Below, in pieces: positions 5,176 through 53,463 of a stretch of 64,000 nucleotides of DNA. The notes below the pieces were generated by a model. The model did no database searches, was not told the DNA's origin, and saw only the letters and a program-made list of their open reading frames with translations. Positions within the stretch are counted from its first letter, which is position 1. Each line of letters opens with the position of its first letter. The translations under genes were made by a program, and so were the position numbers. Source of the DNA: an uncultured Opitutales bacterium (lineage in GTDB: Bacteria; Verrucomicrobiota; Verrucomicrobiia; Opitutales; UBA2995); the NCBI GenBank assembly GCA_938075565.1, contig CALJGU010000050.1, positions 31,169-95,168 on the forward strand. Reading direction: 5' to 3'.

Positions 5176-5927
5176 GAGAGTAGTAGATAGAAAATGGTAT
5201 AATTCATACCGAGGTTATAAAATGAATGCCCAATGATCGCCGGAAGAATCGATTGGTATTTTATCCGAAGCCAGCTAAAACCCAAACTTGTCACGATCAT
5301 CAACACCCACCGGAGGAATCCAGAGATCCAAAACACCTTCAAACCTTCCTCCCCGAGAGCAATTCCATGATGGAATAAATGCACAGTGGCAAAGAGGAAG
5401 GCACTGACACCCACACCCCAAATGAGGCCCCAGCGATCTTGAACCACTCGCTGAATGCAGCCGCGAAACAATATCTCCTCCCCAATGGGTGAAAAGATCA
5501 TGGCAGGGATGGTGAACATCCAAAACAGTTTATTCCTCGGCATTTGCAGGACTCGTTCGTCCTGAAGGAAAGTGGCCGCCACAGATTGAAACCAATGCTG
5601 ATCCGAATCGTCATAAAACAGAATTCCGATCCAGTAGCAGACGAGAGCTAACATCAACCCGAGCAACGGGGCCGATATGCCCCAACCAAATCCTTTGGGC
5701 AAGGTCAGCCCGATGTCGCTCCTGCCTTGATGGGTTAGAAAAAGTAAAGGGACAAACCACATTAGCAGAAAACCTAGCATGGTCATCTGCCCGGGCCCTC
5801 CAACAATGGTTCCGTAAGCCCGGAAGAGTGTCAGGATGAGTAACACGATGCCGAGAAGGATTAACCCGTTCGGACAAATCTTTCGCCAGAGAGGGCGTAT
5901 CTGTATATCAGAATCTTTCAGGCTCAT
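5172..5927 (-). CDS. CPBP family intramembrane metalloprotease
   Basis: A 251-residue polytopic membrane protein with about seven hydrophobic segments. The CPBP (CAAX protease / bacteriocin-processing, Abi) motifs are present in order: EEILFRG with the glutamate pair and arginine at residues about 147-153, a histidine in ATVHLFHHG, and the distal HSFYNLG. These residues form the intramembrane metal-dependent active site in this family. The substrate is unknown. It sits between the AAC(6')-like gene (31-bp gap) and the spermidine-synthase-like gene (4-bp overlap), so these three likely form one transcript. Confidence 0.9.
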   Translation of the reverse strand: MSLKDSDIQIRPLWRKICPNGLILLGIVLLILTLFRAYGTIVGGPGQMTMLGFLLMWFVPLLFLTHQGRSDIGLTLPKGFGWGISAPLLGLMLALVCYWIGILFYDDSDQHWFQSVAATFLQDERVLQMPRNKLFWMFTIPAMIFSPIGEEILFRGCIQRVVQDRWGLIWGVGVSAFLFATVHLFHHGIALGEEGLKVFWISGFLRWVLMIVTSLGFSWLRIKYQSILPAIIGHSFYNLGMNYTIFYLLLS

Positions 5928-49494: not shown

Positions 49495-49806
49495 TTAGTC
49501 CTCGGCAACCGCAAGCCTGTTCACCTCGGATTTGATTTTTTGTCCGTAGGCACGCTGCGCCACCTCCAAATCGTGAGCAGTTTGTAGGCCCAACCAAAAT
49601 CCAGGGGTCGTCCCAAAATAAGCTGACAATCGAAGCGCGGTTTCCGCAGTGATTGATCGGCGACCTTTGATGATCTCCGTGAGCCGTGAAGCTGGAATAC
49701 GAGCATCTCTGGACACTTGAGTCTGAGTTAAATCCATGGGTTTAATGAATTCCTCTGAAAGAATTTCGCCTGGGGTTACACACTCTAATCTGTTTATTGC
49801 CGTCAT
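49495..49806 (-). CDS. higA: HigA-type antitoxin
   Basis: The track start at 49884 lies inside higB in another frame; ATG 49806 (MTAINRLECVTPGEIL) gives 103 residues and a 4-bp gap after higB. It is an XRE-type helix-turn-helix protein of the HigA/VapI group: TPGEILSEEFIKPMDLTQTQVSRDARIPASRLTEIIKGRRSIT region, and FGTTPGFWLGLQTAHDLEVA. It would bind and neutralise HigB and repress the operon through its HTH. Confidence 0.92.
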   Translation of the reverse strand: MTAINRLECVTPGEILSEEFIKPMDLTQTQVSRDARIPASRLTEIIKGRRSITAETALRLSAYFGTTPGFWLGLQTAHDLEVAQRAYGQKIKSEVNRLAVAED

Positions 49807-49810
49807 GATT

Positions 49811-50092
49811 CTAATGATAGTCGACAATGGATACATCCCGTTTGAGTGCATCCCGCCATCGGAAGATGATTCTCCATTGGTCATTAATCCGAATACTCCA
49901 AAAGCCCTTCAGGTCACCACGCAATGATTCCAGGTGATTGGAAGGTGGAACTCGAAGATCTCTCAGATCCTGTGCTTGATCAATCATTCTTAATTTTCGA
50001 CGGGCGCGTTGCTGTATGTCATTCGGAAGTTTTCTAGATCGGATCCCATTAGATATACTCTCAGTTTCTTTATCACCGAAGGACTCAATCAC
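49811..50092 (-). CDS. higB: HigB-type toxin (RelE/ParE superfamily mRNA interferase)
   Basis: 93 residues from a GTG start. MIESFGDKETE, ARRKLRMIDQAQDLRDLRVPPSNHLESLRGD, GFWSIRINDQWRIIFRWRD and VDYH are the standard HigB (plasmid maintenance killer) blocks, including the C-terminal histidine-containing end. It cleaves mRNA during translation when free of HigA. The toxin-first order and 4-bp gap to higA are typical. It is intact and full length. Confidence 0.93.
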   Translation of the reverse strand: MIESFGDKETESISNGIRSRKLPNDIQQRARRKLRMIDQAQDLRDLRVPPSNHLESLRGDLKGFWSIRINDQWRIIFRWRDALKRDVSIVDYH

Positions 50093-51890: not shown

Positions 51891-51911
51891 AATAGAAATT
51901 GGTTAATGAAA

Positions 51912-52352
51912 CCACAAAAAGCGCAAAACGCACAAAAGGGTGATATCTAGGATTGGTGGATAAATTTGCGTATTTGGAGTTTTGAAGCTCCAAAGTTTAT
52001 GAGGAGACCGTGATCCATCTCGGTTCCACGTAAATAAGCCAAGACTTGAGCGATGTGCTCATCAGAAATTGTTTTAACAGCTTTTAGCTCAATCAGAATG
52101 CTTCCTTCCACGATAAGATCAGCAACGTAGTCACCAACAACCGATCCATCTTCATCTAGAACTGGAATTGCAACTTGCTGCTCAACGTTCAAACCCATTT
52201 TTCGAAGCCTGTTTCGGAGAGAGTTTTCATATACCTTCTCAAGGAATCCGTTTTTAAAATACTTATGTGCAGCGAATGCGGATTCTCTAATCGTATCTGC
52301 CAATTGATTAATTTCTTCTTCTTTCATTTTGTGCCTTTTGTGCTTTATGTGG
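51912..52352. mobile_element. Small cassette: GxxExxY gene flanked by imperfect inverted repeats
   Basis: CCACAAAAAGCGCAAAACGC... at 51912-51937 and its inverted copy at 52327-52352 match at 23 of 26 positions and bracket the GxxExxY ORF closely; the right repeat directly adjoins the start codon. The cassette splits two amino-acid genes that face the same way. No transposase is inside. That it is mobile is inference from the ends and placement. Confidence 0.5.
51947..52327 (-). CDS. GxxExxY protein (PD-(D/E)XK-like)
   Basis: 126 residues. The motif G-F-L-E-K-V-Y lies at residues about 27-33, and the nuclease-like core follows: VVGDYVADLIVEGSILIELKAVKTI with the D...E-x-K pattern, then HIAQVLAYLRGT and GLLINFGASKLQIRKFI. 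This is the PF13366 family, found in many environmental genomes in variable copy number and without a known role. All putative catalytic residues are present. It lies within a pair of inverted repeats. Confidence 0.9.
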   Translation of the reverse strand: MKEEEINQLADTIRESAFAAHKYFKNGFLEKVYENSLRNRLRKMGLNVEQQVAIPVLDEDGSVVGDYVADLIVEGSILIELKAVKTISDEHIAQVLAYLRGTEMDHGLLINFGASKLQIRKFIHQS

Positions 52353-52362
52353 TTCCAACAAA

Positions 52363-53463
52363 CTACAGCCGGTTGCGGGCAGCATTATTCCACTGCCCGG
52401 TTACGGCATCTCCTTCCACCACATTCACATGATCATACAGGGCCATAGTCGGACAAATATGAGCGGGAATTCCCAAATAAACATCGCCCACTTGGATCGA
52501 TTCCCAGTTTTGCACTTTGGCGACAAGGTGCTCTTCGCTGTGCCCGACGTATTCGGCGTTTTCCAATCCAAGTAACTGAACTCGAGGATGTGGCATCTCG
52601 GATGCAACGGCCTTGTGGCCCAAGTCAAAACAGACCATTCCGTTTTTGGGTTTGCTCACCACTCGCGTTAATAAAAAAGCAGCATTCTCGAAAGGCATGT
52701 CAGCAAGCCTGATGTTGCTGTTTAAATCCCAAAGCAAGGTTGTCCCAGGACTCATTTCCACTCCATCACGCTTGGCATGGATCGGGAACGAAGGAGAACC
52801 ACCCGCCACTATTACCGGAGGAGCGAAACCCATTTTATTGAGCTGTCTTATTAAGTCCTCAGCTTCTGCATAAGCCTTGTCCACCCTTTCAGTTCGCTCG
52901 CTCAGAGAATCGTCCTGAATATGACCATCATAGACATGCAGTCCTCGAATATCGAGGCGCGGCATCTCATGAAGCACTTTGTAACGAGCCACGGCCTCCA
53001 TGCCAGGAAGTACGCCAGTTCGGTTCATACCGACATTGATATCTAAAAATACACCCAGCCGGGTTGAATGATTTTCACACGCTTCATTCAACTGATGAAT
53101 AATGGCCGCGTTGTCCACCACCACGGAAAATCTTGTGTCGGGAAATTGTGAGGACATCTCAACCAGGAGTTCCACTTCTGGTCCCACAGGTTGAATAGCC
53201 ATGAGCAAGCCCTCGACTTTTTCATCGGCTAGAAGTTTGGCTTCGGCCAGGGTCGCGCACTTAAACTTAGTGATTCCAGCTTCCACCTGCATGCGAACCA
53301 CTTCAGCCAGCTTATGCGTTTTGATATGTGGTCGCAGACGAGCCGGATCGCCAGCGATATTGACCATCTGCTGAATGTTACTCCGAATCCGGTCAGGATA
53401 GATCAACACCGCAGGTGACGGAATGCTTGTCACGTCGGGAATGGCTTCAGGGAACAGAGGCAT
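52363..53463 (-). CDS. D-serine dehydratase-like / D-threonine aldolase-like PLP protein
   Basis: 366 residues with the alanine-racemase-type N-terminal barrel. The PLP lysine is K48 in RPHIKTHK, followed by FKCATLAEAKLLADE, DINVGMNRTGV, VAGGSPSFPIHA and the C-terminal metal site AHICPTMALYDH, with the His-x-Cys pair that binds zinc in DSD1-type enzymes. The family breaks down D-serine, D-threonine or beta-hydroxyaspartate. Together with the dipeptidase downstream it points to D-amino acid or peptide use. The exact substrate is not clear. Confidence 0.87.
   Translation of the reverse strand: MPLFPEAIPDVTSIPSPAVLIYPDRIRSNIQQMVNIAGDPARLRPHIKTHKLAEVVRMQVEAGITKFKCATLAEAKLLADEKVEGLLMAIQPVGPEVELLVEMSSQFPDTRFSVVVDNAAIIHQLNEACENHSTRLGVFLDINVGMNRTGVLPGMEAVARYKVLHEMPRLDIRGLHVYDGHIQDDSLSERTERVDKAYAEAEDLIRQLNKMGFAPPVIVAGGSPSFPIHAKRDGVEMSPGTTLLWDLNSNIRLADMPFENAAFLLTRVVSKPKNGMVCFDLGHKAVASEMPHPRVQLLGLENAEYVGHSEEHLVAKVQNWESIQVGDVYLGIPAHICPTMALYDHVNVVEGDAVTGQWNNAARNRL

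Follow-up and report, generated by a model that had tools for sequence, protein, structure and literature searches.

A GxxExxY gene and its inverted tandem-unit arms resemble a miniature mobile element of a kind not yet described

Within the 64,000 nucleotides of an uncultured Opitutales genome that we analysed (the window), a small GxxExxY gene sits between two other genes and is tightly enclosed by an inverted repeat. The locus raises two questions: whether the gene and its ends form a unit that spreads, and, if so, whether the protein encoded inside does the moving. The features concerned are the following.

51907..52358, minus strand: whole element from arm to arm, ~452 nt (~0.45 kb), delimited by nucleotide homology to elements at unrelated sites
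51947..52327, minus strand: GxxExxY gene (PF13366/TIGR04256), 126 aa, from the ORF list and a profile match
51907..51937, plus strand: window-left arm, downstream of the gene, three units CCACAAAAAG-CGCAAAAC-GCACAAAA
52327..52357, minus strand: window-right arm, upstream of the gene, CCACATAAAG-CACAAAAGG-CACAAAA
50826..51890, minus strand: flanking gene for an M19 membrane dipeptidase, outside the element, from a domain match and the empty-site comparison
52363..53463, minus strand: flanking gene upstream of the element, with alanine-racemase-N/D-serine-dehydratase domains, outside the element, from a domain match

The top inverted repeat of the region pairs 51907-51937 with 52327-52357 over 31 nt at 87% complementarity. 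Its 26-nt core (51912-51937 / 52327-52352) has exactly 3 mismatches, and its score of 42 exceeds the maximum of 29 reached in 2,000 dinucleotide shuffles of the flanks. Allowing 3 mismatches or fewer, a search of the 64 kb with a consensus arm retrieves these two arms and nothing else (expected number, 0). Thus, the 26-bp inverted repeat of the original prediction is real, and what it said of the surroundings also holds: the right copy touches the start codon, the last A of the arm being the A of the ATG, and the cassette lies between two same-strand genes, the M19 dipeptidase and the racemase-like gene, both on the minus strand. The stop codon of the latter is 5 nt from the right arm. At 49495-50092, a HigB-like toxin gene and an adjoining HTH antitoxin-like gene are separated from the M19 gene by 0.7 kb.

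When elements of the same clade at unrelated loci are aligned with that of the window, nucleotide homology runs exactly from arm to arm (L005 1443-1894 against L045; L005 1446-1890 against L051). Among 260 pairs with different flanks, homology hardly ever extended beyond the arms (95th percentile +1 and +4 nt); it was long enough to reach them in only ~15% of the pairs, because most pairs are too divergent. One genome (G006, contig L058) holds two copies 2.3 kb apart that are 95% identical over 465 nt within unrelated flanks; the shared stretch begins ~11 nt before the left arm and stops 4 nt after the right one. No target-site duplication was visible for these copies or at the gatA-gatB site described below, both sites having diverged. 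That the segment from one arm to the other is mobile thus has good support. That this is an ordinary operon gene, whose local inverted repeat acts as an attenuator or operator without any mobility, is scarcely credible: the gene does run in the direction of both neighbours, and purifying selection acts on it, but arm-bounded homology at unrelated sites contradicts this reading, as do empty sites and gene-less copies.

Both states of a site were found among congeners, as the original prediction had proposed to look for. We compared one genome per species, so that occupied and empty sites differ at the species level; G001-G004 are congeners of the window's genome, and G006 and G007 belong to a related genus. 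Between gatA and gatB, the element is present in the congeners G001, G003, and G004, a single remnant arm is left in G002, and the site is cleanly empty in G000, G005, G006, and G007, with the two genes nearly touching and no arm. Since G000 and G001 are close (GatB identity 98%), either G000 lost the element without a scar or received an empty allele in its place, or the element arrived here in more than one event. At the window's own site, G000, G001, and G004 carry the element (decayed in G004), and the site is empty in G002 and G003; G007, from another genus of the same family, has the window's insertion with one flank in common. The insertion is therefore older than the species and not fixed in the genus, rather than a private recent event. 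Between G000 and G001, the element gene presents a dS of 1.4-2.2 vs. 0.5-0.8 for the flanking genes, a value near saturation over ~110 codons, and turnover at the site could explain this excess. A tree of same-site and other-site elements of the window's clade was poorly resolved and is left out of the argument.

By a rough ORF call on 125 elements, the upstream gene was co-directional in 82% (same-strand baseline, 30/46 neighbouring pairs), and the median distance from its stop codon to the arm was 7 nt. This placement behind stops suggests that the elements are expressed by read-through and persist where they do no harm, and it need not mean a targeting preference.

To see how far the layout extends, we gathered 197 distinct PF13366 loci: those of the window's genome, others from its order and phylum and from plasmids, and others again from named genomes across many phyla (including Sphingomonas, Geobacter, Flavobacterium, Planctomycetota, Chloroflexi, and cyanobacteria). 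An arm pair above the chosen threshold was found at 154 of these loci, which are not independent of one another and span many phyla, against none of 180 control window pairs placed 500 nt further out; the other 43 loci had no detectable arms. The original prediction had named flanks without shared repeats in most family members as grounds for dropping it; most members do have such ends, so that objection fails. Its fixed "ACAAAAG-type" repeat, in turn, is only one clade's version. Arms usually consist of three tandem units of 8-10 nt each (the top self-shift is 8 nt in 76 and 9 nt in 44 of 276 arms, together 120/276), mostly with outer ends of AACCRC or a TCAC-like sequence, and they differ between protein clades while matching within a locus. 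The window's genome illustrates this: it has seven PF13366 copies, six with flanking inverted repeats, and each pair has its own sequence. In an earlier test on 68 loci, the median score was 38 for a locus's own pair vs. 16 for arms of different loci. Arm similarity grows with protein identity (Mantel r 0.49, p 0.001; r 0.41 for pairs below 60% protein identity); the within-locus similarity of 0.78 is inflated by choosing loci with matching arms, and this between-locus trend is not.

The family itself is common. PF13366 is present in 69 of 145 sampled genomes of the window's phylum, usually in several copies, annotated only as "GxxExxY protein". The protein gave no tblastn match in phages. Plasmids contributed eight scattered records, with no occupied/empty pair among them. 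In the open-access literature, we found no account of GxxExxY function and no mention of the arm sequences.

The window protein matches PF13366 with 110 bits (curated cut-off 22) and TIGR04256 with 120.6 bits (cut-off 35). E30, D70, E80, and K82 are invariant in 30 sequences, and Q94 and Y98 are conserved at ≥90%; D, ExK, and QxxxY residues are the signature of the RecB/Cas4 family. No solved structure matches GxxExxY by sequence. The AlphaFold2 model (pLDDT 94.3) has the Cas4-like SSO0001 (4ic1) as its top PDB match (E 4.9e-4, prob 1.00, a moderate TMq of 0.56), followed by MGME1, lambda exonuclease, and AddAB/AdnAB nuclease domains; Cas4 profiles also give weak hits. The predicted fold and these residues agree with the PD-(D/E)XK-like protein of the original prediction, and we regard GxxExxY as a predicted minimal nuclease of the Cas4/RecB-like PD-(D/E)XK type. 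Cas4 proper was considered and rejected: it needs four Fe-S cysteines and cas neighbours, and the 126-aa window protein has no cysteine –thus no Fe-S cluster of that kind– and is flanked by the M19 and racemase-like genes. The domain search returned PF13366 and a sub-threshold SAM match, and no DDE, HUH, serine, or tyrosine transposase or strand-transfer domain. Four pairs of copies with usable synonymous rates gave dN/dS of ~0.03-0.14, which indicates strong purifying selection; PF13366 pseudogenes also occur.

The arms are found without the gene as well. Pattern searches, with reversed-pattern controls at 0 throughout, retrieved the 10-nt arm type 9 times in G000, 26 in G001, 10 in G002, and 4 in G004, and the window's arm type 25 times in G007 and 8 in G001. 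The 8-nt arm type occurs 365 times in G006 and in none of the other four genomes searched. Arm types broadly follow the gene clades present in a genome, with exceptions such as G002, where the 10-nt type is present although no gene of the matching clade is intact. Among 36 gene-less arms examined, 15 had an inverted partner by score, mostly 24-38 nt apart and giving a total of 85-100 nt. These gene-less pairs look like REPINs or MITEs. MITEs share their ends with an autonomous element; here the ends are shared with a gene-bearing unit that may be autonomous and may mobilise the short ones. We also considered them as deletion derivatives of the gene and discarded the idea: their spacers show no similarity to the gene. 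The spacers do not, in general, resemble each other either. Five gene-less elements of G007 (L314, L322, L325, L336, and L337) combine the window's arm type with a common inner sequence and are therefore probably a recently spread family. One orthologous gene-less pair (L353:14425, L377) has both arms of a single type in G000; in the close species G001 one of the arms is of a different type, so that two types meet in the pair.

Repeats of several lengths were also noted in these genomes. G006 has hundreds of (CACAAAGG)n array matches (L058:1086-1139, 1422-1478, and 5812-5907), some of which adjoin a TCTCGCC/GGCGAGA hairpin; they are absent from four genomes of the window's genus. A 130-260-nt repeat (L353:6250-6509), unrelated to the arms, has dozens of dispersed copies in G003 and G002, and a 30-40-nt repeat (L353:19682-19811) recurs many times, almost unchanged, in the window's genome.

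A genome can contain both gene-less and gene-bearing pairs of one arm type, and the nuclease group of the protein acts on DNA ends. Both points would suit homing: the repeats would have come first as arm pairs, and the nuclease would cut a pair that lacks the gene, upon which repair copies the gene between its arms. We consider this improbable: the empty gatA-gatB sites have no arms at all, neither do the G002 and G003 sites that lack the window element, and we found no site whose arm pair is gene-less in one species and gene-bearing in another.

On balance, we lean towards the gene and its two arms being one ~0.45-kb miniature mobile element whose GxxExxY nuclease would cut its own arms for movement. 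The original prediction had the gene and its ends as a unit that spreads or is spread. The unit is borne out by its boundaries and by its occurrence at unrelated sites; that the nuclease itself drives the movement of the arms is what we infer, as the simplest reading, because arms and protein correlate, the active site is conserved, and no other gene is present. The protein would recognise its own arms by their tandem units, probably once the two inverted copies meet or fold as single strands at a replication fork. It would cut at the arms, and the arm-to-arm segment would be released and captured elsewhere without target duplication. The gene is probably transcribed by read-through, since the element usually lies a few nt behind a stop codon and is co-directional with the preceding gene. 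By analogy with REPINs, which are thought to be served by RAYTs, arm pairs that lack the gene would depend, as non-autonomous partners, on the protein acting in trans. Several results weigh against this reading: the lack of a transposase or strand-transfer domain and of a visible target duplication, site differences at the level of species rather than strains, the 43 loci without arms, the dissimilar spacers of gene-less pairs, and the gene-less pair with arms of two types.

A second protein family bears on this mechanism. PF05635 is the protein of 23S rRNA intervening sequences, and its loci (L037, L038, and L389-L418) present inverted arms in 25 of 32 cases, vs. 2 of 32 for the control, and the top self-shift of these arms is 7 nt in 17 of 25. 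The 23S rRNA intervening sequence of Coxiella burnetii, 428 nt long and excised by RNase III, has tandem heptamers GACAGAT before its S23p ORF (PMC4990558), and the 7-nt units of the PF05635 arms appear to fit these heptamers. The original prediction overlooked these parallel elements as well as the gene-less arm pairs. Because the PF05635 protein is an unrelated non-nuclease with the same layout, the arm layout is not tied to the nuclease, and the arms may not need one.

Three points speak for a passenger role: this layout, the existence of gene-less pairs, and the absence of a transposase domain from the GxxExxY protein. The unit would be mobile, its arms moved in trans by a Y1/RAYT transposase, an integrase, or host repair, while GxxExxY –whose counterpart in PF05635 is a four-helix protein– would bind the arms or serve another function. 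We hold this to be rather unlikely, because arm sequence tracks the GxxExxY clade, which is not expected from a common outside enzyme. None of 15 Y1-transposase loci in G000, G001, and G006 has such arms, and the four inspected have different repeats, which in three cases contain GGGGTC as their core. The inverted repeats containing GGGGTC at the Y1 genes L338, L341, and L346 are like the known TIRtron/REPtron type.

The Coxiella sequence also raises the case of an RNA-level element, in which the transcript would fold back on itself through its arms and RNase III would cut out the insert. Size, an ORF in the loop, and tandem-unit arms are like those of the 428-nt sequence (PMC4990558), and the element sits in transcribed units. 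Against this stand the arm mismatches: those of the G.U type are not in excess over those of the A.C type (105 vs. 127, p 0.17; 31:31 in a smaller set), which favours DNA-level recognition over RNA pairing. There is no Rfam match either, and the insertions lie between genes, not inside rRNA, so we judge this reading quite improbable.

Returning to the nuclease-driven element, a broader version is tentative and, in our opinion, on the doubtful side. A RecB/Cas4-type nuclease of ~125 aa would be the sole enzyme of widespread autonomous mini-elements that recognise tandem-unit ends specific to their clade, and the mobiliser of their gene-less partners; PF05635 elements, rRNA intervening sequences included, would be a second branch of the same lifestyle with an unrelated protein. 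Should the elements indeed be mobile, there would be a role for a large orphan family and a likely cause for one class of dispersed palindromes in these genomes. A 126-aa protein and a 30-nt DNA would then be enough to study a process that resembles transposition but has no recognised transposase. The layout in common with the rRNA intervening-sequence proteins gives a new handle on how intervening sequences spread.

Set beside known systems, the GxxExxY family appears to be miniature mobile DNA of a kind not yet described. It has the terminal inverted repeats of MITEs and insertion sequences, and short gene-less forms that would correspond to theirs, but no known transposase, no target duplication visible at the diverged sites, and an arm sequence that varies by clade. 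With the Cas4/RecB-like nucleases (SSO0001 4ic1, MGME1, and lambda exonuclease), it shares the predicted fold and the D, ExK, and QxxxY residues; unlike them, it has 126 aa, no Fe-S cysteines, no cas or recombination partner, and a repeat-framed unit of its own. The 23S rRNA intervening sequence is likewise a selfish element of 0.4-0.5 kb with one small ORF and inverted ends of short tandem units, whereas the GxxExxY protein is unrelated to S23p (PF05635), its units are of 8-10 nt instead of 7, and the window element lies between protein genes, not in 23S rRNA, with no sign of RNA-pairing selection. Finally, REPtrons and TIRtrons consist of a RAYT or TIRYT gene flanked by repeats, with dispersed repeat doublets, or REPINs (PMC3116915, PMC3733652). 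They differ in having an HUH/Y1 transposase instead of a PD-(D/E)XK nuclease and GTAG/CGTC-tagged palindromes instead of tandem 8-10-nt units, and the GxxExxY gene itself is found in several copies per genome at different sites. Common to both are a small gene framed by inverted repeats, dispersed gene-less inverted pairs of ~100 nt, and repeats that co-diversify with the protein.
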